Shown here: in pieces, positions 17,967 to 27,031 of the stretch
Numbering within the stretch: position 1 is the first letter of the stretch
Layout: each line of letters opens with the position of its first letter
From: Paludibacter jiangxiensis
GTDB lineage: Bacteria; Bacteroidota; Bacteroidia; Bacteroidales; Paludibacteraceae
Direction: 5' to 3'
Length of the DNA: 32,254 bases
NCBI GenBank assembly: GCA_945870155.1
Contig: CAMBSB010000042.1
Span: 1-32,254, forward strand
The notes under the pieces: generated by a model
Told to the model about the DNA's origin: nothing
The model's database searches: none
What the model saw: only the letters and a program-made list of their open reading frames with translations
Position numbers and translations under genes: made by a program

Positions 17967-18001
17967 ATGCATTTGATATTTATTGTCAGATGCATTTTTT
18001 T
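17967..18001 (+). terminator. Terminator of the gpx-ohrR-gpx operon
   Basis: A 10-bp stem ATGCATTTGA (17967-17976) with TCAGATGCAT (17986-17995), one G.T pair, followed by a run of seven or eight T. It lies 21 bp past the stop of the last gene. Confidence 0.85.
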
Positions 18002-18128
18002 TGTGCCTACTAAACACCCTTCAAGAACTTATAGCAACGATTTTGTTATTAATAATATAGTTAAATTGTTGATAAATTTAAAAATAGTCATTCGATTTTT
18101 ATGAACTAACACTTAAAGATGCTCCAAA

Positions 18129-18157
18129 CGCCCCCTTTAGGGGGTTGGGGGGCTGAG
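18129..18157. repeat. GC-rich palindromic repeat copy
   Basis: CGCCCCCTTTAGGGGG followed by TTGGGGGGCTGAG. This is the clearest full copy of the dispersed family and has the same orientation as 4484-4512. The rest of the 518-bp gap before the ECF sigma gene holds the terminator above, the 12-bp motif at 18259 and the promoter at 18373. Confidence 0.7.
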
Positions 18158-18258
18158 TGGTTGACTTTTTTATTGTTTTCATAAATATTCGGGTCTGATA
18201 TTTCTGTAAATTCAAAAAATATTTAGAAAATAATATATTTGACACAATTTTTTTGAAA

Positions 18259-18270
18259 TGCATACGTTTA
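18259..18270 (+). promoter_or_regulatory. TGCATACGTTTA motif upstream of the ECF sigma gene
   Basis: The exact 12-mer recurs at 19179-19190, just before the small ORF after the sigma gene. In both places a run of T ending in G lies 3-4 nt upstream. It could be a promoter element read by this sigma factor, or a regulator site. Function is inferred. Confidence 0.45.
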
Positions 18271-18372
18271 ATGATATGCCAATTTGTGTTAAGGTAGACA
18301 CATAAACTGTAAATTAAGTATTAAAAAATGACTTTTTATACTTTAAAAGTTTTTCATTTAAAATACTATTCA

Positions 18373-18380
18373 TATATTTG
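18373..18380 (+). promoter_or_regulatory. -7 element of the ECF sigma gene
   Basis: TATATTTG matches TAnnTTTG. A TTTT tract at 18350-18353 lies at the right spacing for a weak -33 box. The leader to the ATG at 18464 would be about 75 nt. Confidence 0.5.
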
Positions 18381-18463
18381 CAGACTAATCATTCTTATTA
18401 ATAATTAAAATTTTAAAAGCCTATTGTCCTATTATTACTCTTAAACCCCTAAATTTAGAAGTA

Positions 18464-19057
18464 ATGAAAAATCTAAATCAATTTACTGATGAAGAATTGG
18501 TAAAATTGTATGAGAAAGGCAATAATGGAGCATTTGAAATTTTATTATTACGTTACAAATCAAAGGTATATTCATATATCTATTTGATTGTTCGGAATAA
18601 AGAACTCACCGAGGATATATTTCAAGATACATTTATTAAAGCCATTGCAACCATACAACAAGGTCGCTACATTGAGTCAGGAAAGTTTCTTGGTTGGATT
18701 AATCGCATTGCTCATAACCTGATTATTGATCATTTTCGTCGCGAAAAAAACGAGAATACATATTCGGCAAATGATTTTGAATACGATATAATTAACAACA
18801 CCAAACTTTCTGAGAAAAGTTTTGAGGAAACTTTGTCTAATGAGCAGGTTTTGAATGATGTTGTACGTCTTATTGATTTTCTACCCGAAAGTCAACGAAG
18901 CGTTGTACGTATGCGTTTTTTCGAAGATCTTAGTTTTAAAGAAATTGCTGAAAAAACCGATGTAAGTATTAATACTGCACTTGGAAGAATGCGTTATGCA
19001 TTGCTTAATATGAGGAGAATTGCTATAGAAAACGATGTTTATTTAGAAATTAAATAA
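18464..19057 (+). CDS. ECF-subfamily RNA polymerase sigma factor
   Basis: 197 aa. Sigma region 2 covers about 18-95, with the core-binding helix EDIFQDTFIKA (50-60) and the -10 recognition and melting segment WINRIAHNLIIDHFRR (78-93). Region 4 covers about 137-185, with the helix-turn-helix LSFKEIAEKTDVSINTALGRMRYAL (156-180). There is no adjacent transmembrane anti-sigma factor, which is the usual ECF partner. Instead a conserved-looking 60-aa protein follows. The regulon cannot be named from this window. Confidence 0.9.
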   Translation: MKNLNQFTDEELVKLYEKGNNGAFEILLLRYKSKVYSYIYLIVRNKELTEDIFQDTFIKAIATIQQGRYIESGKFLGWINRIAHNLIIDHFRREKNENTYSANDFEYDIINNTKLSEKSFEETLSNEQVLNDVVRLIDFLPESQRSVVRMRFFEDLSFKEIAEKTDVSINTALGRMRYALLNMRRIAIENDVYLEIK

Positions 19058-19178
19058 CAAATCAATAATTAATTAAAAACCAGCAAATCAACATTTTGCA
19101 GTTTTGTTTGATGAGTATTCACTTTTTATTGAAATAAAAATATAATATTTCGTATAGTTGAATATACTTTTTTGCCAT

Positions 19179-19190
19179 TGCATACGTTTA
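19179..19190 (+). promoter_or_regulatory. Second TGCATACGTTTA motif, before the small ORF
   Basis: Identical to 18259-18270 and 33 bp upstream of the ATG at 19223. Its position fits a promoter or leader element of the small gene. Confidence 0.45.
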
Positions 19191-19222
19191 TTATTTTATA
19201 AGTAATAATTTTAAAAGTGCCT

Positions 19223-19405
19223 ATGCAAAAAACTACTTCTTTTTTAAACAAAACTGATTTTCAAGAATTAAGTAAACAGTCGAAAGACGAAACAAAAATG
19301 TTGAGCCCAACAGATGCAACTTTGCAAAAGATTCTTCAATTTGCCGCTTCATACAGGGTACAACCAATAGAAAATAATCAGTATGTTGAAATGTTTTTAA
19401 ACTAA
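19223..19405 (+). CDS. Small conserved-looking protein paired with the ECF sigma factor
   Basis: 60 aa from the ATG at 19223. A GTG two codons earlier is possible but less likely. Sequence: a polar N-terminal half, then LSPTDATLQKILQFAASYRVQ, ending in NNQYVEMFLN. No enzymatic motif, signal peptide or membrane segment. It lies 165 bp after the sigma gene on the same strand and has a strong terminator right after its stop. I believe similar short proteins follow this sigma type in other Bacteroidota, but that is recollection and untested. It could be a small regulator of the sigma factor. Confidence 0.6.
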   Translation: MQKTTSFLNKTDFQELSKQSKDETKMLSPTDATLQKILQFAASYRVQPIENNQYVEMFLN

Positions 19406-19407
19406 AA

Positions 19408-19440
19408 AAAAGACTTCCAGAAATTGGAGGTCTTTTCTTT
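19408..19440 (+). terminator. Intrinsic terminator after the small ORF
   Basis: AAAAGACTTCCA (19408-19419) pairs with TGGAGGTCTTTT (19425-19436), one T.G pair, loop GAAAT. It is followed by CTTTTT. It ends the sigma/small-protein region directly before the tRNA fragment. Confidence 0.85.
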
Positions 19441-19442
19441 TT

Positions 19443-19482
19443 AAGAGCGGCAAGCGAGACTCGAACTCGTGACCCTCAGCTT
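19443..19482 (-). repeat. tRNA-Gly 3' fragment (left attachment-site repeat)
   Basis: 40 bp identical to 26038-26077. It covers the T arm, variable loop, 3' acceptor strand and part of the anticodon arm of tRNA-Gly(CCC). Beyond it the match stops at once (TTT against GGG), so it is not a functional tRNA. It is the displaced original 3' end expected after integration. Confidence 0.85.
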
Positions 19483-19710
19483 TTTAACTAAATTCAGCAA
19501 TATCACAGCCGCACTTATGAAAAGTGTGCAAGTGCAAATTTATCAAAACTAAAAGTTTATTTTCCATCTTGATAGTATTCTCAATTTATAGTTTTTGATT
19601 GTCATTGCTGAAAAATATGTCCAAACATTTTTTTAATTTTTATGTTGCTCAAAAAATTAAAAAAGAGAAGTTTACAAGTTAATTAAACTTTTCATTGTGT
19701 TTTAAAAAGA
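19483..19710. other. Left end of the island, non-coding
   Basis: 228 bp between the tRNA fragment and the sigma-like gene. It contains a small hairpin (CACTT with AAGTG, about 19514-19527) and the sequence GTGCAAATTTATCAAA, which loosely resembles the CTTGCAAATA repeats at the right end of the island. No gene seen. Confidence 0.4.
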
Positions 19711-20331
19711 TCATTTATTTAAAAAATTCTTATATTTATTCAATCCTCTTTCAACCTTTTTCCTTAATGTTGCCTCATTATATTTAGAATACTCATCTAA
19801 AACTACTATTTCTTTATACGATAAGTTATCAATAATACGAAGTTCCAAAAGTTTCAGTGTTTCAATTTCTTCTTTTAAATAGGCATCAATATTTTTGGTT
19901 CCATCGTAAATATCTTTTAGTAAAGTTTCGATTGAATTTTCTTCATTATCAGCATTATTTGAAGTGTCAACTATATCTTCATAATTTTCATAGTTTTCAA
20001 TATATTTAAATTTTGCCCTCCTGATAATTAATTCAAATACTTTTCGAATTGCAATTGTATACATAAACTTAAAGAGTTCACTTTCATTCTCAAATTTTAA
20101 ATCTTTCCTTTCAAAGATATAAATAAGCAATTTAGAAACAGCCTCATAAGCAGCATCTTCTGCTGTTTCTTTTGTTATTCTATACTTTGATTTGAGCAAA
20201 AATTGTATCCTAGTTGCTATCCGTTCCAACGACCAACCATATTTCAAATCAAATTTTTCAATTATTTCTGCTCTTCGGTTTTCGATTTCATACACAGAAG
20301 ATTCGAAATTAAAGTCATTATTTTCGGACAT
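19711..20331 (-). CDS. Sigma-70-like (ECF-type) protein
   Basis: 206 aa. Residues about 35-112 resemble sigma region 2 (TAEDAAYEAVSKLLIYIF at 56-73; FKFMYTIAIRKVFELIIRRAK at 87-107), and residues about 158-203 resemble the region 4 helix-turn-helix (LKLLELRIIDNLSYKEIVVL...ATLRKKVERGLNKY). The match is weaker than for the gene at 18464, and the linker is acidic and Asn-rich. It lies alone on the minus strand at the left end of the tRNA-Gly island, transcribed away from the ATPase. It could control island genes or be a divergent regulator without sigma function. A -7-like TATTTTTG is 14 bp upstream (20345-20352). Confidence 0.6.
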   Translation of the reverse strand: MSENNDFNFESSVYEIENRRAEIIEKFDLKYGWSLERIATRIQFLLKSKYRITKETAEDAAYEAVSKLLIYIFERKDLKFENESELFKFMYTIAIRKVFELIIRRAKFKYIENYENYEDIVDTSNNADNEENSIETLLKDIYDGTKNIDAYLKEEIETLKLLELRIIDNLSYKEIVVLDEYSKYNEATLRKKVERGLNKYKNFLNK

Positions 20332-20649
20332 AAATTTTTTTTGTCAAAAATACGAATATTTTCAGAACTTATGTCACAAAATTGTCCTCTTATTTATTTT
20401 ATTATGCCTACTAAATATTTTGAAATTGAAGATTTTGAATTGAAGATTTTGAAAATAATTTTTATTTAATGTTTTGGATAATTCAATTGAATTACATATA
20501 CTTGTATTTAGATAATATTTGAATTGCTACAAAAGCGCTCTTTGACATATTGGACAATCTCAATTTCTTTACAATCACAAAGTAACAACCCATCCATTTG
20601 CTATTTATCTGATTTTATGTTTTAAAACCAATAATAAAAATTCAGTTTT
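20332..20649. other. Divergent intergenic region with a 14-bp tandem repeat
   Basis: 318 bp between the sigma-like gene and the ATPase gene. ATTGAAGATTTTGA is present twice in direct tandem (20425-20438 and 20439-20452). TATTTTTG on the minus strand at 20345-20352 is a -7 candidate for the sigma-like gene. No convincing -33/-7 pair is seen for the ATPase. No gene. Confidence 0.5.
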
Positions 20650-22320
20650 ATGGAACACAAAACCCTCTCTTTTAATGTTTTAGAAACGATTTATAAAATT
20701 TCTACCGAACTTTTTGAATCCGAATTGAATCCCGAAACGACCGAAAAAATCAAAAATGAAAGTTTACAATTAGCTAGTTTCTTAGAAGTTACCGAGCAGC
20801 AAGCTTGGTTTTTTGCCATTATTTATGTACAGCAATCCATGTGTATTTCGTGCGACTTGAGCGATTTATTAAACGAACTAGCCATGAAAACCACCAAATT
20901 TGTAAAATACCGCGCTGACTTAATAGCTTTAATCGAAAAAAAAATAATCAAATCTGAGCTGGCACGCCGTAGTCGGAAGAAAACTCCAACGGCTAATTTC
21001 AAATTAATGATGATTCGTGAGAATATCTTAGAAGCCGTTTTACAAAACATTCCGATTGCCGAAGCCAATAAATTGGAAGAACTTGATATTTACGACTTTT
21101 GCATAACCGTATCAGACTTTATCGAAGAAAGAGCACACGATGCAATTACCACCGACCAGCTTTTAGGGGAAGTGGCTACATTGGAAATGCACAACTCACA
21201 CATTGTTGCTATTGAAAAATTAATGGATATGGAAATTTCTCTCCACGACCGTACTTTGCTATACGAAATATGCGACGACATGATTCGTGGTGGCGATACC
21301 GCTTTGGAAAGAACTATACGCGATATGTATGATTCTCAAAAACATCGCATTATAAAGGTAAAAGAAATGACCCAACAAACCAACAAATTGATAGAAACCA
21401 ATTTGATAGTGGTAAACAAAGCCAATTTTGTGGGCGATGTAAGTTTATCACTTACCACCACAGCTATAGAATTGTTGCTGGGGCAAGATGCTGAACTCTT
21501 TATCAAAAAACAAACCAAGAAAGATGTTATTTCGGCTGATGCCATTGCTGCCAAAGAACTATATTTTGAAGACAAACTACAAAAGCAAATCGACTTTTTC
21601 TCAACCAGTCTCACGCAAGAAAAGTTTACCGAAATGCAAATCCGATTAGAAGAAATGGCTATGCCTAAAGGCGTTGCAGCCGTATTTTATGGTGCTCCGG
21701 GAACAGGTAAAACCGAATCGGTGTACCAAATTGCCAAAGCTACAGGGCGTGATATCATGTATGTAGACATTAGCCAAACAAAATCAATGTGGTTTGGCGA
21801 AAGCGAAAAACGTATCAAGGCGGTGTTTAGCGATTACAACCGCTTGTGTCGTAAGAGTAAATTGAAACCCATTCTGCTTTTCAACGAAGCAGATGCAGTA
21901 CTTGGAAAACGCAAGGACGGCAATTCCTCCAACGTAGCTCAAACCGAAAATGCCATTCAGAATATCATTTTGGAGCAAATGGAAAAAAACGATGGAATAC
22001 TCATTGCCACCACCAATTTGGTTGACAATCTGGATGCAGCCTTCGAACGTCGCTTTTTGTTCAAATTAAAATTTGAACTACCAAGCGAAGAAGCTAAAAT
22101 ACAAATTTGGAAAAGCAAACTGAATTGGTTAGATAACGATAATTCGGCAACACTAGCCAAAAACTACCAATTCTCAGGTGGCGAAATCGACAATATCGCC
22201 CGCAAATCCATTATCAACGAAGTAATTACTGGTAACCCCTCCACCCTTGACGAACTCGTACAATACTGCGACGAAGAACGATTAATGAGCAAAAGAGGAG
22301 TGAAACTCGGCTATAAATAA
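20650..22320 (+). CDS. AAA+ ATPase with helical N-terminal region
   Basis: 556 aa. The N-terminal 320 residues are helical and of unknown function. The C-terminal AAA+ module has Walker A GAPGTGKT (348-355), Walker B ILLFNEAD (408-415), sensor 1 ATTN (453-456) and arginine-finger candidates R467-R468 in FERRF, so it should hydrolyse ATP as an oligomer. The core resembles FtsH/SpoVK-like classical AAA domains but has no protease or nuclease domain. Remodelling of a protein substrate is the likely activity; the substrate is unknown. It is an island gene, 153 bp upstream of the glycosylase-like gene. A short imperfect hairpin (22339-22365) follows the stop. Confidence 0.85.
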   Translation: MEHKTLSFNVLETIYKISTELFESELNPETTEKIKNESLQLASFLEVTEQQAWFFAIIYVQQSMCISCDLSDLLNELAMKTTKFVKYRADLIALIEKKIIKSELARRSRKKTPTANFKLMMIRENILEAVLQNIPIAEANKLEELDIYDFCITVSDFIEERAHDAITTDQLLGEVATLEMHNSHIVAIEKLMDMEISLHDRTLLYEICDDMIRGGDTALERTIRDMYDSQKHRIIKVKEMTQQTNKLIETNLIVVNKANFVGDVSLSLTTTAIELLLGQDAELFIKKQTKKDVISADAIAAKELYFEDKLQKQIDFFSTSLTQEKFTEMQIRLEEMAMPKGVAAVFYGAPGTGKTESVYQIAKATGRDIMYVDISQTKSMWFGESEKRIKAVFSDYNRLCRKSKLKPILLFNEADAVLGKRKDGNSSNVAQTENAIQNIILEQMEKNDGILIATTNLVDNLDAAFERRFLFKLKFELPSEEAKIQIWKSKLNWLDNDNSATLAKNYQFSGGEIDNIARKSIINEVITGNPSTLDELVQYCDEERLMSKRGVKLGYK

Positions 22321-22426
22321 ACCATTAAAAGCGAATGCGATAGCCTTACAAAGCCTAAGACTATCACATTACTAAAAATATTTTCACAAAAAATCAATTA
22401 AACTGTTTTCATTCCGAAGAAATGTT

Positions 22427-22434
22427 TAATTTTG
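22427..22434 (+). promoter_or_regulatory. -7 element before the glycosylase-like gene
   Basis: TAATTTTG matches TAnnTTTG, 40 bp before the ATG at 22474. It would put the start of transcription near 22441 and thus rules out the longer frame from 22432. Confidence 0.5.
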
Positions 22435-22473
22435 AGGGGTGAAAGAAAATACAAACTTTTAAAAACGAAAACT

Positions 22474-23052
22474 ATGCTAATCAACCATCAACTAAGTAAT
22501 GCGATTTTTTTTATTCCCAATTGGGACGTTAAGTATTTATTATTGGGAACCTTTAATCCTGAAGGAGGAGATCCAGTATCATATTTCTATGGGAGAAATA
22601 GAAATCGAGCTTGGGAATTACTTTCAGATATCTTCAATGTCGAATTACACCCAAATAACGAAAATTTCTTTGAATTAATTCAAACCTTAGGAATTGCATG
22701 TATGGATATGATTCAGCAAGTTGAAGTTGAAGATAATCAAGTTAATCATGTTATTGGTAAAGGGTATTCTGATTCTAAGATTATAAATGGTCATGTTTTC
22801 AGAATTTACAACACACAAAATATAATTGACGTTATTAATGCAAATCCAAAAGTTAAGTTATTCTCTACTTGGGGAACAGGTTCAAATCTAAATGAATGGC
22901 AACAACAGGTTTCTGAAATTAGACTTGTTAAGGAAATAATTCCATTAGTCTCACCGAGTATGGTTGCAAGAGTGCCCGCAGGGGTTGAAAAGTATCAATA
23001 CATGTTGAATGATTGGAGAAATAAATTTCAGGTAAATAATATTCAATTATAA
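22474..23052 (+). CDS. Uracil/hypoxanthine-DNA-glycosylase-superfamily protein
   Basis: 192 aa from ATG 22474. Three blocks fit the UDG superfamily, closest to the family 6 (HDG) type: LLLGTFNPEGG (22-32) with YFYGRNRNRAW (37-47), matching the first active-site loop and the downstream aromatic/Asn-x-x-W segment; GIACMDMIQQ (73-82); and PLVSPSMVARV (157-167), matching the terminal S-x-S-P-type DNA-binding loop. Members excise deaminated or modified bases from DNA. Located in the tRNA-Gly island and followed 26 bp later by an unknown gene on the same strand. A repair role or action on modified phage DNA are both possible. The family call is by eye. Confidence 0.6.
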   Translation: MLINHQLSNAIFFIPNWDVKYLLLGTFNPEGGDPVSYFYGRNRNRAWELLSDIFNVELHPNNENFFELIQTLGIACMDMIQQVEVEDNQVNHVIGKGYSDSKIINGHVFRIYNTQNIIDVINANPKVKLFSTWGTGSNLNEWQQQVSEIRLVKEIIPLVSPSMVARVPAGVEKYQYMLNDWRNKFQVNNIQL

Positions 23053-23078
23053 TCGTTCTTATAATAATAAATAGAAAT

Positions 23079-23660
23079 ATGAAAGCATCAAAATTAGTTT
23101 ATAATTCAAATGGTTGGACATCTCTAACTGGCTTAACAAGGGATGGAGTTAGATTAAATAATGGTTCAGCCTTTGGGTTTGAAGAGTGGTTAAATAATCC
23201 AATTTTAAAAGAACTCAAAGTTGGATACATTGATAGCTTTAGGTCAGCAGACGTTGATAATAGAATTGATAAAATTGTTTTATTTACTTTAGAAAACCGA
23301 GTTAATTATTACGTTGGTCAAATTATTGGCGCATCTCGTATAGATAATGTTGAAGTGTTAAATACCCGTGCTAGACTTATAAATAGAAATTGGTTAATTA
23401 ACGTCAATAATGAGCTTAACAATATATTCAACGATCCTAATGCATTTATCAAATATAATAGATGTTTTAATTCTAACAAAGTTACAGGCAACACTGAATC
23501 AACTTTTATATGCAATTTAAAATATGAAAGTATGGAAATATTTCAACGTGAAAATTGGATTAACATTAGCGAAATGGGTCAAAGAGTCAATTCTAGATGG
23601 AGACATTTGAGGAACCTATATGATGTATACGGCGATGACGAATTTATGTTTGAAAAATAA
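23079..23660 (+). CDS. Unknown protein paired with the glycosylase-like gene
   Basis: 193 aa, not recognised with confidence. The first 90 residues look like a compact beta-rich domain: SLTGLTRDGVRLNNGSAFGFEEWL, then VGYIDSFRS and KIVLFTLENRVNYYVGQI. The phrase FGFEEWL followed by a YVG-containing strand recalls the N-terminal part of some uncharacterised proteins near restriction-type genes, but this is a weak recollection. The C-terminal half is Asn-rich and helical (RENWINISEMGQRVNSRWRHL). No signal peptide or membrane segment. It starts 26 bp after the glycosylase-like gene, so the two are probably co-transcribed. Confidence 0.65.
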   Translation: MKASKLVYNSNGWTSLTGLTRDGVRLNNGSAFGFEEWLNNPILKELKVGYIDSFRSADVDNRIDKIVLFTLENRVNYYVGQIIGASRIDNVEVLNTRARLINRNWLINVNNELNNIFNDPNAFIKYNRCFNSNKVTGNTESTFICNLKYESMEIFQRENWINISEMGQRVNSRWRHLRNLYDVYGDDEFMFEK

Positions 23661-23684
23661 TACTAACTAAGCTTGATCATTTCC

Positions 23685-24348
23685 AAGGTCGTAGACCTTG
23701 ACTGTGCATAACCCCCAGTGCAAACTGGGGGGAATAAACAGTAAAACCCTAACTAACAACTCAGTAGGAGTTGACCAACAACCAACAACCAAAAACAAGA
23801 AACCATGAATAGTTACCGTCAATTTCTTTTCCACATCGTATTTTGCACTTACGAGCGCAAAAACACTTTGCCTACAGAACATCACGATGAACTTTACAAG
23901 TACCTCTGGGGAGTTATTAAAACTCACAAAGGTGTACTTTATCGAATAAATGGCGTTGAAAACCATGTGCATATTTTGTGCGATTTACATCCTACGGTTT
24001 GTATTTCAGATTTGATCAAAGACATGAAAGTTGGTTCCAATTTGTGGATAAAACAAACGGGCAATTTCCCAAAATTTGAATCGTGGGCAGAAGGATATTT
24101 TGCTGCAACCTACAGCAACAAAGACAAAGAAATGATTATCAACTACATAAAAAATCAGAAACAACATCACCATAACGTAACTTTTGAAGATGAATATCGG
24201 GCTTTGCTCGATGAACATGGAATAGCGTGGGATGAGAAGTATATCTTTTGATGGTGTTGGTGAACTCCTACGGAGTTCTATCGGTGTTTTAGTTCGTCAT
24301 TCCCCCAATTGCATTGGGGGTTATGCACAGTCAACACCTCTGGTGTTG
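23685..24348 (+). mobile_element. REP-type IS200-like transposase unit with three mirrored hairpins per side
   Basis: The transposase gene is enclosed by inverted ends. Left: hairpin AAGGTC-GTA-GACCTT (23685-23699), linker GACTGTGCATAA, hairpin CCCCCAGT-GCAA-ACTGGGGG (23712-23731), then CAACTC-AGTAG-GAGTTG (23757-23773). Right, in reverse order and orientation: GAACTCC-TAC-GGAGTTC (24262-24278), CCCCCAAT-TGC-ATTGGGGG (24302-24320), linker TTATGCACAGTC, CAACACC-TCT-GGTGTTG (24332-24348). Stem sequences differ between sides by paired changes. Such inverted ends fit REP-associated transposases rather than classical IS200/IS605, whose ends are not inverted repeats. Confidence 0.8.
23805..24251 (+). 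CDS. REP-associated Y1-type transposase (IS200/IS605-like TnpA)
   Basis: 148-aa HUH single-strand DNA transposase. The metal-binding HUH motif is H54-V55-H56 in ENHVHIL. The catalytic tyrosine is Tyr114 in NYIKNQ, with Gln118 four residues on, as in the Y-x-x-x-Q arrangement of IS608 TnpA. Both active-site halves are intact and the length is normal, so it may be active. No TnpB or IscB partner is present. It cuts single-stranded DNA at sites next to hairpins; the three hairpins on each side are its presumed substrates. It lies within the tRNA-Gly island, between the unknown 193-aa gene and the small HExxH gene. Confidence 0.9.
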   Translation: MNSYRQFLFHIVFCTYERKNTLPTEHHDELYKYLWGVIKTHKGVLYRINGVENHVHILCDLHPTVCISDLIKDMKVGSNLWIKQTGNFPKFESWAEGYFAATYSNKDKEMIINYIKNQKQHHHNVTFEDEYRALLDEHGIAWDEKYIF

Positions 24349-24493
24349 TATAATAGTGCAATTTAGCTTTGTGCCTAATGAACAAAGGGTAAAAGTTAGA
24401 GATGCATTGTTGAATACTTCGAACTTAACACCTTAGCCATGGTAATGATTTGGGAGTATTGAATCAATGAATCAATGAATTAAAATAAGCACT

Positions 24494-24817
24494 ATGGTAA
24501 TTATTATAGAACAAATCAAGCACTTAGGCATAGCTGGCATCACACTTTTTCCGTTTATTATTCTGCGTGATAAGGCTTTGAACCAAGACAAACGAATTAT
24601 GAATCACGAAAGGATTCACATTCGTCAGCAGTTGGTATTGTTGGTATTGCCGTTTTATGTATTGTATTTAATTGAGTTTGGTGTTGGACTTATCAAATAT
24701 AAAAACAGAATGGAAGCCTATATGAATATTTCATTCGAAAAAGAAGCTTATGAAAATGATGAAAATTTTGATTATTTGAATGATAGAAAATGTTGGGCAT
24801 GGGTGAAACAACTTTAA
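24494..24817 (+). CDS. Small membrane protein with HExxH motif (zincin-like)
   Basis: 107 aa. NHERIHIRQQ holds H38-E39-R40-I41-H42, the zincin zinc-binding pattern, followed by a hydrophobic helix LVLLVLPFYVLYLIEFGVGL (47-66) and then ISFEKEAYEND (79-89), where Glu82 or Glu84 could be the third ligand. The N-terminus also has a short hydrophobic stretch. I recall similar short proteins in Bacteroidota, annotated only as hypothetical. A minimal membrane metallopeptidase is possible, or a catalytically dead relative. A -7-like TAGCTTTG is at 24364-24371. Gene reality is good; function is inferred. Confidence 0.65.
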   Translation: MVIIIEQIKHLGIAGITLFPFIILRDKALNQDKRIMNHERIHIRQQLVLLVLPFYVLYLIEFGVGLIKYKNRMEAYMNISFEKEAYENDENFDYLNDRKCWAWVKQL

Positions 24818-24884
24818 GCTGATTTTTTCTTCAAAACTTATAATTAACAAAACGACCTAAGACCATAAAGATTAAATAGAACAA

Positions 24885-25487
24885 ATGAATAGAGAAACTT
24901 ACGGATTAATCCCCGAAAATCCGGTACAATTAAACAGCACAAAGGCTGCAATGGCATATTTGGATAGCCTTGTAACAAAAAAAGAGGCTCACCATTTTTT
25001 GTTTCATCGGCTTATGTCGTTCGATTTTAACATCTTTGATGGAATTGAAAAAACACTTGAGAATACAGTGGATATTTATGAGTTATGCACAAATAACGAA
25101 ACCTTTTTTACGCTTTTTATCAATATTCATTGCAATGAATGCTTGTGGATTCCCCCGGCGCCGTTCGATTTTGAATTTGATATGATTTATATTGTTGACA
25201 AAGAAATGACCGAGGAAAATGAAGCCGAATATAGTTTAGTTCCGGTTGATAAAGAATATGTCAGTAAAATAAGAGCAAATTGGGAAGTAGAAGACTTTGA
25301 TAAATACTACCTTGAAAATATGGATGATATCCTATTTCGTAATTGGGGAGTAAACTATAAAGTCACTCATTTTCCTTATGATCTTTGGGTGAGTTATCTG
25401 AAGGAAAATACTGTACGTGTGTCAGATATGACAAAAGAGGAGCTTGAAATGAGGGAAAAGGCACTTTCAGAATATGAAACAAACTAG
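24885..25487 (+). CDS. Hypothetical protein, island cargo
   Basis: 200 aa, not recognised. Acidic overall, with aromatic-rich segments (HHFLFHRLMSFDFNIFDG; CLWIPPAPFDFEFDMIYIVDKE) and a charged C-terminal helix (MTKEELEMREKALSEYE). The N-terminus MNRETYGLIPENPVQLNS is followed by a helix (TKAAMAYLDSLVTKK). There is no signal peptide, membrane segment or catalytic motif that can be named. It starts 67 bp after the small HExxH gene on the same strand and may be co-transcribed with it. Confidence 0.7.
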   Translation: MNRETYGLIPENPVQLNSTKAAMAYLDSLVTKKEAHHFLFHRLMSFDFNIFDGIEKTLENTVDIYELCTNNETFFTLFINIHCNECLWIPPAPFDFEFDMIYIVDKEMTEENEAEYSLVPVDKEYVSKIRANWEVEDFDKYYLENMDDILFRNWGVNYKVTHFPYDLWVSYLKENTVRVSDMTKEELEMREKALSEYETN

Positions 25488-25530
25488 ATTACTTCCAAAA
25501 ATCAAAAATAAACCAATGGTCAAATAATTC

Positions 25531-25538
25531 TAATTTTG
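25531..25538 (+). promoter_or_regulatory. -7 element before a broken small ORF
   Basis: TAATTTTG matches TAnnTTTG and lies 13 bp before the ATG at 25552. It supports a former or present transcript here. Confidence 0.4.
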
Positions 25539-25551
25539 TAGAATAAAAACA

Positions 25552-25710
25552 ATGAAGCCAGAAACTCAGAAATTAGTGGACAAACGCAACAGGGTAGCGG
25601 TTTAAGCAGTTCAAGAATTGCAGAAATTGCCATTCTCACAGGAACAGATAGACAAGCAAGTGGAGGAAATGTTCAAAGTGCACAACCATCCAAATCCAAA
25701 CAAAACTTAG
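25552..25710 (+). pseudogene. Small ORF interrupted by an in-frame TAA
   Basis: ATG at 25552 opens MKPETQKLVDKRNRVAV, then TAA (25603-25605). The same frame continues AVQELQKLPFSQEQIDKQVE and on through EMFKVHNHPNPNKT to a TAG at 25708. The composition on both sides of the stop is that of a small helical soluble protein of about 51 codons, and a -7 element precedes it. Alternatively the 17-aa piece or nothing here is translated. The remaining part of 25488-26040 shows no gene. Confidence 0.35.
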
Positions 25711-25995
25711 TTCAATCTTATAAATCCTTTAAATTCAGTTATGTAATCTAAAAGAGGATAAATCTAAAACGATAGTCCTTCAACAAACAGTACAAAATTG
25801 GTTTAATCAGGAAGAATAACAATTGATAATCGAGATATTTGATAATAAATGGAAAAATTAAGTTTATTTTTAAGTAGTAAGGTGAAATAAAATAGAAGAA
25901 ACTATTAAGCGAAATTTTTTAATATATGTGTGTTGAAATATAGTTAAAAAAGAGTGCTGTGTGATAGTTGTATGTGTATTGTATGTGTAAAAGAA

Positions 25996-26033
25996 AATCA
26001 ACTACTTGCAAATATACTTGCAAATAGTTGATT
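25996..26033. repeat. Repeats next to the right attachment site
   Basis: TACTTGCAAATA is present twice in tandem (26003-26014, 26015-26026), enclosed by a 9-bp inverted repeat AATCAACTA (25996-26004) with TAGTTGATT (26025-26033). It lies 5 bp from the 40-bp att repeat. Such short direct repeats next to a core site could be recombinase arm sites. As the tRNA is read on the minus strand, the hairpin also lies directly at its 3' side and might help end its transcript. Confidence 0.6.
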
Positions 26034-26040
26034 ATCAAAG

Positions 26041-26113
26041 AGCGGCAAGCGAGACTCGAACTCGTGACCCTCAGCTTGGGAAGCTGATGCTCTACCAACT
26101 GAGCTACTGCCGC
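26041..26113 (-). tRNA. tRNA-Gly(CCC)
   Basis: 73 nt on the minus strand, no encoded CCA. The acceptor GCGGCAG pairs with TTGCCGC (one G.T), the D arm has AGCTCAGTTGGTAGAGC, the anticodon stem TCAGC/GCTGA encloses the loop TTCCCAA with anticodon CCC, and the T arm has GAGTTCGAGTCTC-type sequence with the TTCGA core. The discriminator is T. The gene is intact and is the target of the candidate island, whose 40-bp core covers its 3' half (26041-26077). Confidence 0.95.
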
Positions 26114-26160
26114 AATATTTTTATTTTAGAACAAAGAATAAAGAACAAAGACTTTAAGCC

Positions 26161-26369
26161 AAAGTTTTTGATACGAAACTCGAAACGCAATACTCACAAA
26201 TTTCAAACTTTTTTCTTTAAGTCTGGCAGAGTCGGAACTCTGTCATCCCGAAGACCCCCAACCTCCAAATGGGGGCTTTAAGGCCAAGTGTTTATATCAT
26301 GAAACGCAAAACTCTCAAATTTTCAAACTTTTTTCTTTAAGTCTGATAAAATCGGAATTTTATCATCCC
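26161..26369. repeat. Two copies of a 120-bp-spaced repeat with compensating hairpins
   Basis: 26161-26250 and 26281-26369 are related copies offset by 120 bp. Each has a stretch like TTTCAAACTTTTTTCTTTAA, then GTCTG and a hairpin. Copy 1: GGCAGAGT-CGGA-ACTCTGTC (26225-26244). Copy 2: GATAAAAT-CGGA-ATTTTATC (26345-26364). The loops are the same while most stem pairs differ on both sides, so the structure is kept. Between them is CCCCCA...TGGGGG (26255-26275). The block lies 3' of rnfA on the transcript side, so it may act as its 3' end. Confidence 0.75.
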
Positions 26370-26380
26370 TGAACTCGCAC

Positions 26381-26956
26381 TTACTTCACTATTCCTGCAA
26401 ATCCCATAAAGGCCATTGCCAATAAACCGGCAGTTAGTAACGAAATAGGTGTTCCTTCCATACCTTTGGGTAATTTCATCATGCTAAGTTGCTCACGTAT
26501 ACCTGCAAAAAGCACCAAGGCTAGTCCAAAACCCAACGCTGTAGAAATGGCAAATACTACACTCTCAATTAAATTTAGATCTTTTTGTACAACCAAAATT
26601 GCTACCCCCAAAATTGTACAATTGGTTGTAATCAATGGTAAAAATACTCCTAAAGCTTGATAAAGCGCAGGTGAAACCTTTTTTAGAATAATTTCAACCA
26701 ATTGTACTAATGCCGCAATAATTAAAATAAAGGTGATAGTTTGTAGAAAACCAATATTAAACGGCTCTAAAACTGTTTTTTGAATTATATAAGTAAAAAT
26801 GGTGGCGATTGTCATTACAAATGCTACTGCACCACTCATACCCAGTGCTGTGTCTATTTTTTTTGATACACCTAAAAATGGACAAATTCCCAGAAATTGT
26901 GACAATACTATATTATTTACAAATACTGCACTGATAAAAATTAAAATATATGTCAT
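26381..26956 (-). CDS. rnfA: Rnf complex subunit RnfA
   Basis: Integral membrane subunit of the Rnf ferredoxin:NAD+ oxidoreductase. 191 aa, six predicted membrane helices. Cys25 (LGICPFLGV) and Cys113 (TTNCTILG) are the conserved positions that, with the equivalent cysteines of RnfE, hold a membrane Fe-S centre. RnfA and RnfE are homologous with opposite topology. Last gene of the operon; it starts 75 bp after rnfE ends. Confidence 0.95.
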   Translation of the reverse strand: MTYILIFISAVFVNNIVLSQFLGICPFLGVSKKIDTALGMSGAVAFVMTIATIFTYIIQKTVLEPFNIGFLQTITFILIIAALVQLVEIILKKVSPALYQALGVFLPLITTNCTILGVAILVVQKDLNLIESVVFAISTALGFGLALVLFAGIREQLSMMKLPKGMEGTPISLLTAGLLAMAFMGFAGIVK

Positions 26957-27031
26957 ATTAATATTATTTACAATTAATTCATTTACAATTTACTAATTCC
27001 TTAATCATCAAATCATCTCATCAATACATCA

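Follow-up and report, generated by a model that had tools for sequence, protein, structure and literature searches.

A 6.6-kb island bounded by a tRNA-Gly(CCC) duplication and lacking an integrase in Paludibacter jiangxiensis

The contig CAMBSB010000042.1 of Paludibacter jiangxiensis (order Bacteroidales; assembly GCA_945870155.1), of which positions 1 to 32,254 constitute the window analyzed here, contains an island at 19483-26037 that lies between two identical copies of the 3′ half of a tRNA-Gly(CCC) gene and in which no integrase was detected. On balance, we favor the reading that this island is the remnant of an integrative element that has lost its integrase and has come to resemble a cis-mobilizable element (CIME); the element may possibly have been a temperate phage or a phage-like island. 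As an island, it would most probably be a decayed mobile element of an ordinary kind, although its cargo includes an unusual pair of possible phage-defence genes. The results suggest tRNA-Gly(CCC) as an integration site of phages and islands in the Bacteroidales, and this gene holds inserts without integrases in two species of one genus.

The tRNA-Gly duplication and the search for an integrase

A repeat search of the window recovered a direct repeat of 40 bp, 100% identical between its copies at 19443-19482 and 26038-26077, which lie 6595 bp apart; practically no exact repeat of this length is expected by chance in 32 kb. The sole tRNA gene called in the window by ARAGORN is the presumed target gene, a complete tRNA-Gly(CCC) on the minus strand (26040-26113), and an Rfam search of positions 18000-27000 agrees with this call (RF00005, 63.2 bits). 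The repeat starts in the anticodon loop, takes in the 3′ remainder of the tRNA and ends 2 nt past it, the copy at 19443 being an orphan. Both the duplication and its identity as the 3′ half of a tRNA that is complete at one end and orphaned at the other had been put forward in an original prediction made from the sequence alone, and both were recovered. When positions 19430-19495 were used as a query against the whole genome (339 contigs), matches were obtained only at these two places. An intact tRNA at one end and an exact displaced 3′ piece at the other is the arrangement of a tRNA-integrating island, and the copies are referred to below as attachment (att) sites, that inside the tRNA (26038-26077) being of the attL type and the orphan half (19443-19482) of the attR type. 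A terminator-like hairpin of 17 pairs (25996-26033, minus strand) lies directly past the tRNA 3′ end, and a second terminator-like hairpin (19408-19436) lies 8 nt from the orphan half.

A site-specific recombinase of the island's own was not found. Phage_integrase was matched 14 times in the genome, 12 times above the cut-off, but never on this contig. In the window, neither tblastn searches, for which phage integrases and those of this genome served as queries, nor hidden Markov models (HMMs) run with the --max option gave a match better than E of about 1. As the original prediction had stated, the only recombinase between the repeat copies is a Y1/IS200 transposase of the HUH type (23805-24251; PF01797, E=1e-22). 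Positions 25488-25995 are non-coding or degenerate, with a longest stop-free run of 69 codons and no integrase signal. This non-coding place past the tRNA end (25488-26037) is the one at which two other tRNA genes of the genome carry an integrase: in one case, the integrase frame begins 72 bp past the end of a tRNA-Phe, of which a further complete copy lies at a distance of 11.5 kb; in the other, the frame begins 115 bp past the end of a tRNA-Asp, of which no second copy was found in the stretch examined (both distances to the frames counted from the first possible start codon). The tRNA-Phe element (contig C2, 20774-32420; L295, L296) resembles the island as an insert between two tRNA copies, but differs in that its second tRNA copy is complete and in that it encodes a protein with Arm-DNA-bind_5, Phage_int_SAM_5 and Phage_integrase domains together with a BT4734-like/DUF3987 protein. 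Loss of an integrase gene from the island is favored, although not proven, because the place past the tRNA end is non-coding here and bears an integrase at the two other tRNAs. A further integrase beside tRNAs, on contig C65, was rejected as a mobile integrase; it adjoins EF-Tu-like and ribosomal-protein-like genes, as it does in the related genome G016, and is read as a candidate XerC/D.

The same tRNA half stands beside integrases in phages. Bacteroides phage BS-TP2 (PQ571275.1) carries a 39-nt tRNA-Gly 3′ half with an annotated tyrosine integrase 155 bp away, and the 11.9-kb stretch scanned is free of tRNA genes. The half in MT838459.1, a faecal phage contig, is located 102 bp from an integrase with Arm-DNA-bind_5, Phage_int_SAM_5 and Phage_integrase domains and 5 nt from the contig end, so that the tRNA may or may not be complete there; this integrase is 51% identical over 408 amino acids to the one beside tRNA-Phe in the P. 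jiangxiensis genome. Both phages share with the window the tRNA-Gly 3′ half and, by eye, a hairpin next to the tRNA end, whereas both, unlike the window, have an adjacent tyrosine integrase. The flank at 25996-26033 and that of BS-TP2 are alike at 17 of 25 ungapped positions (p 0.0013, 20,000 mononucleotide shuffles), a likeness that is suggestive only; both flanks are AT-rich hairpins. The halves beside integrases in BS-TP2 and MT838459.1, and a tRNA copy that likewise bounds an insert in the relative G004 (see below), uphold the view that such a repeat is the mark of tyrosine-recombinase integration. A plasmid match (H21) was rejected as attP evidence, being a complete tRNA-Gly among chromosome-like genes.

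If the favored reading is correct, the core used by a tyrosine integrase would have been the 40 bp that stretch from the anticodon loop of tRNA-Gly(CCC) to its 3′ end, the tRNA would have been rebuilt with a 3′ half and hairpin brought in by the element, which is thus the presumed source of the 3′ half of the complete tRNA, and the original 3′ half would have been displaced to 19443. Loss of the integrase gene, whose expected place is just past the 3′ end of the tRNA, would have followed, leaving cargo between two intact att copies, which is the anatomy of a CIME. On this reading, an integrase of the same specificity that reached the cell could still act on the two cores. In PMC5704250, CIMEs are described as having att sites at both ends and no integration genes, and as decayed integrative and conjugative elements (ICEs) or integrative and mobilizable elements (IMEs). 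The island likewise keeps attL and attR at a tRNA 3′ end without integration or transfer genes; it differs from the CIMEs of that description in that some of its cargo has phage relatives, and neither a tandem element nor mobilization was seen. No relative with conjugation or integrase genes, of the kind that would point to ICE or IME ancestry, was found. The insert differs from phage satellites in that no integrase, packaging or capsid-hijack gene was recognized in it by Pfam, NCBIfam or PHROGs. PMC3146451 and PMC11389934 also served for comparison. Among 12 of 302 papers on integrase-less tRNA islands, none describes this case by its title or abstract opening, which does not establish absence.

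Related loci and competing explanations

For comparison, 21 relatives with a complete tRNA-Gly were used, all with the CCC anticodon and with one genome per species; in 16 of them the sequence examined beyond the 3′ end of the tRNA was 5 kb or longer, and in five it was shorter. The tRNA is without this insert in all 21. It adjoins rnfA in 11, as in the window, and in eight a helix-hairpin-helix gene follows on its 3′ side (in G004 behind an insert and one more gene). A half-tRNA copy is present in one of the 16 long stretches, that of G004, and absent from the other 15. The original prediction had named a duplication in relatives without the insert as the observation that would tell against integration; the 40-bp repeat is indeed absent there, but short copies of the tRNA end do occur. 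Exact copies of 18 nt (G016) and 17 nt (G014) lie 61-78 nt downstream of the tRNA (L089, L144) with no gene between, G012 (L086, a shorter stretch) has a 13-nt copy with one mismatch, and the other 13 long stretches contain no tRNA-end copy longer than 10 nt. Such copies, which were found by searching each stretch with its own tRNA end after a first blastn had missed those of 17-18 nt, exist without an island, and none is the 40-bp repeat.

Across 48 genomes of the genus, no other clear 3′-only tRNA piece appeared among the matches listed. G001 has a 24-nt match of 88% to the 5′ part of the tRNA (blastn), and in G008 this tRNA is cut off by the end of one contig, while a second contig stops no more than 7 nt from a match to the 5′ part of the tRNA, a hint of a repeat at this place. 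tRNAs identical to that of the window are found in G022 and G061; in G022 a helix-hairpin-helix gene follows directly behind the tRNA and there is no tRNA copy. A 105-amino-acid Arm-DNA-bind_5 fragment, possibly an integrase relic, is located 186 bp before the G022 tRNA (L083:3632-3949). Searches by blastp with nine integrases of the P. jiangxiensis genome found no integrase at the tRNA-Gly loci of relatives in the stretches searched, the G022 fragment being the only trace, although a diverged one could escape such a search.

On the orphan side, the island is flanked by a chromosomal sigma factor gene (18464-19057) and a small gene (19217-19405), both outside it and on the plus strand. An empty site in which these two genes are joined to the tRNA and rnfA had been anticipated in relatives, but it exists in none of the 21 tRNA loci, and the sigma/small gene pair is located elsewhere. 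No tRNA was found in 29 sigma loci of relatives (L004-L032, flanks of up to 1.5 kb) or, by ARAGORN, in six longer sigma stretches (L287-L292), and the sigma stretches of G004 and G015 (L121, L122) gave no tRNA-Gly match in a search by blastn only. The sigma gene has the same upstream neighbor in nine of nine loci (G004, G015, G017, G025, G024, G019, G027, G030, and G012) and the same conserved downstream gene in seven of the eight that show this side, the exception being G012; G004 has two extra genes between the sigma gene and the conserved downstream gene, and a small gene is called between the sigma gene and its downstream neighbor in five of the seven loci. In the P. jiangxiensis genome, contigs C102 and C199 hold the usual neighbors of the sigma gene, and C62 holds the gene that is the usual 3′ neighbor of the tRNA, with no tRNA in the 14 kb examined. 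The neighbors of both the sigma gene and the tRNA thus lie on other contigs, and therefore gene order was reshuffled in this lineage, before or with the insertion. Relatives often have a hairpin shortly after the tRNA (by eye), and the orphan side, with its hairpin 8 nt past the tRNA end, could be the former tRNA end; however, DNA homology to the small-gene region of G015 reaches 19440 and takes in the hairpin at 19408-19436, which counts against this.

The same displaced neighbors on C102, C199, and C62 lend weight to a different explanation, in which the orphan half and its surroundings were joined by chromosomal rearrangement or by metagenomic misassembly at the tRNA sequence, and not by a 6.6-kb integration. 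The identical tRNAs of G022 and G061, the short tRNA-end copies without an island in two relatives, and the state of the genome itself, an assembly of 339 contigs with 2.95% contamination, would all be compatible with such an origin. We nevertheless consider it unlikely: the extent of the repeat, with one boundary in the anticodon loop and the other at the tRNA 3′ end, is that of integrase cores, and none of the relatives examined has the island genes next to this tRNA. A length of 40 bp is, moreover, shorter than a usual sequencing read.

Less likely again is a satellite that was without an integrase from the outset, having only att sites and cargo, and that depended for its movement in trans on an integrase of matching specificity from a phage or island. 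This alternative draws on G004 (L085:2512-4521), in which a different insert of 1.9 kb, encoding a Fib_succ_major protein and no integrase, occupies the same tRNA-Gly and is followed by a tRNA piece of 54 nt with 94% identity to the window tRNA (blastn); two different inserts without integrases are thus found in this gene in two species of the genus. Phage integrases do exist beside this tRNA half, and both att copies of the window are intact and identical. No helper was found, however, as a search of the genome for an integrase-bearing element with the same core, which the original prediction had proposed, yielded no third copy of the 40 bp in the assembly. Moreover, no packaging, capsid-hijack or mobilization gene was recognized in the insert by Pfam, NCBIfam or PHROGs (nor, for packaging and mobilization, by a PADLOC scan), nothing related to the single gene called in the G004 insert occurs in the window set, and no copy of the whole island gene set was found elsewhere. 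As between the satellite and the integrase-deleted remnant that the original prediction had offered together, deletion is the better fit to the non-coding place past the tRNA, whereas mobilization in trans is possible but less likely.

That the IS200-type Y1 transposase served as the mobility gene of the whole island, being the only recombinase inside, is most improbable, as its own inverted flanks are tight around it (23698-23730 and 24302-24334), the gene p107 directly follows another cargo gene without an IS200-type element in G022, G061, and G007, and IS200/IS605 transposases are not known to leave 40-bp tRNA duplications.

Several observations nonetheless weigh against descent of the island from an integrated element that lost its integrase. 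With a GC content of 32.6%, against 31.7 and 35.7% in the flanks, the insert is not distinct in composition; its outer flank differs from the usual 3′ neighbor of tRNA-Gly, and no empty site was seen. No integrase remnant is recognizable in 25488-26037, it being position alone that points to a loss, and no integrase-bearing relative of the island came to light. The short tRNA-end copies of G016, G014, and G012 belong here also. Among the phage-collection matches examined (H27-H30), an integrase stands beside the half in two of four; MT837568.1 has none within 4 kb, and MT835944.1 was rejected as attP evidence since it holds a complete tRNA-Gly among chromosome-like genes. The IMG/VR contig L268 has an orphan half and no tRNA; the C-terminus of an integrase lies 484 bp from the half, beyond its anticodon-loop end, and the N-terminus of an integrase about 3.4 kb from it in the opposite direction. 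Because the first fragment is on the anticodon-loop side, a position past the tRNA end is not universal for integrases; at the corresponding place in the window, inside the orphan half, no integrase was found. Finally, in G022 the ATPase gene, the glycosylase-like gene and p107, all known from the island, stand together ahead of chromosomal genes, and no tRNA-Gly was found there. This cargo trio without a tRNA-Gly leaves room for separate histories of the cargo and the att site.

Cargo of the island and its phage relatives

Between the repeats, the gene order is a sigma-factor-like gene on the minus strand, an AAA+ ATPase gene, a uracil-DNA glycosylase (UDG)-like gene, p193, the Y1 transposase gene, p107 and p200, followed by about 550 bp without genes. 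The AAA+ ATPase (20650-22320, plus strand; PF00004, E=6.1e-24) is of a defence-associated kind with an IetA-like AAA domain; residues 296-538 match IetA of PADLOC (E=1.6e-25), and the N-terminal 330 or so amino acids are without assignment. The protein differs from IetAS in that it scores 85 bits against an NCBIfam cut-off of 510 and no IetS match was obtained among the seven island proteins scanned. A WYL homolog is present in 30 of 80 loci related to the ATPase and a GmrSD homolog in eight, and a paralog on contig C65 of the same genome is located between GmrSD genes and a WYL gene. Plasmid records matching the ATPase number 879, all below 60% identity.

The gene that follows (22474-23052, plus strand) encodes a putative uracil/hypoxanthine-DNA-glycosylase-like protein. 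It matches TIGR04274 below the cut-off (E=3.4e-6) and no Pfam family; its profile matches PDB entry 2l3f (E=5.6e-10), which is also the top Foldseek match (E=1.1e-3), followed by thymine-DNA glycosylases, for a weak structural model (predicted local distance difference test score, pLDDT, of 57). No plasmid match was found for this protein or for p200.

An ATPase gene followed by a UDG-like gene is found in the window (20650-23052), in G022 (L103:233-2621) and in G010 (L104:689-3310), the latter two being the sole such cases found among the 80 loci, in a search whose profile derives from the three proteins themselves. The ATPases of G022 and G010 are 72 and 68% identical to that of the window and the glycosylase-like partners 23 and 24%, a comparison of only three cases; a fourth close ATPase, in G034 (67%), has a WYL gene in place of the UDG-like gene. 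The pair is, to judge from these sequences, possibly a defence module. A larger proposal, which we hold only tentatively and think doubtful, is that of an undescribed anti-phage module in which a conserved ATPase is joined to a fast-diverging UDG-like protein and a variable third gene, and which is spread in integrase-less tRNA islands; it would look as if one motor were fitted with differing base-recognizing heads against differently modified phage DNAs. Brig1 is likewise a UDG-superfamily protein in a likely defence setting (PMC11078745, in part), but no AAA partner is mentioned for it in the portion of that source drawn on here, and its likeness to the window protein is by description only. 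Titles and abstract openings on UDG/AAA pairs in defence islands and on IetAS include none describing this case. Should the pair prove to act in defence, glycosylase-based protection against phages would gain a form made of two proteins, in which the recognition part can be exchanged.

The last two genes of the island connect it with phages. p107 (24494-24817, plus strand) encodes an HExxH putative metalloprotease (phrog_15610, 'protease') with homologs in 44 phage records, and a relative adjoins a holin gene in Riemerella phage RAP44. It is present in nine of the 48 genomes of the genus, P. jiangxiensis included, two of these being weak or partial. p200 (24885-25487, plus strand), of 200 amino acids and without an assigned family, has relatives in G007 only, as two copies with 52 and 54% identity on a phage-like contig (C57, L284), where p414, the two p200 relatives and p107 stand ahead of a gene for a PLD-type endonuclease and of two terminase-like genes (phrog_309, E=1.6e-4; phrog_2, E=1.5e-7). 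The content of this contig suggests, without amounting to proof, that the p107/p200 end of the island may have had a phage source. No phage structural gene was found in the island by Pfam or PHROGs, and viral contigs gave no confirmed relative of p200, p193 or the sigma-like gene. The predicted structure of p200 (pLDDT 40) was not used. In several genomes, a varying gene set ends in p107.

Of the remaining genes, that for the sigma-factor-like protein (19711-20331, minus strand) is assigned by phrog_1740 only (E=0.0024) and is surrounded by an AT-rich stretch (19483-20649, 24.9% GC). p193 (23079-23660, plus strand) is without a known family; among 393 genomes of the order, one besides its own gave weak matches, as did other parts of its own genome. 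The IS200-type element (23698-24334, plus strand), in which the transposase gene is enclosed by 33-nt inverted flanks, is probably a later passenger. Outside the island on the tRNA side is the chromosomal gene rnfA (26381-26956, minus strand), named from gene order only. A 52-nt intergenic repeat occurs between the tRNA and rnfA (26198-26249 and 26318-26369, 85% alike), and five further contigs (C129, C94, C145, C99, and C4) have matches to positions 26192-26327.

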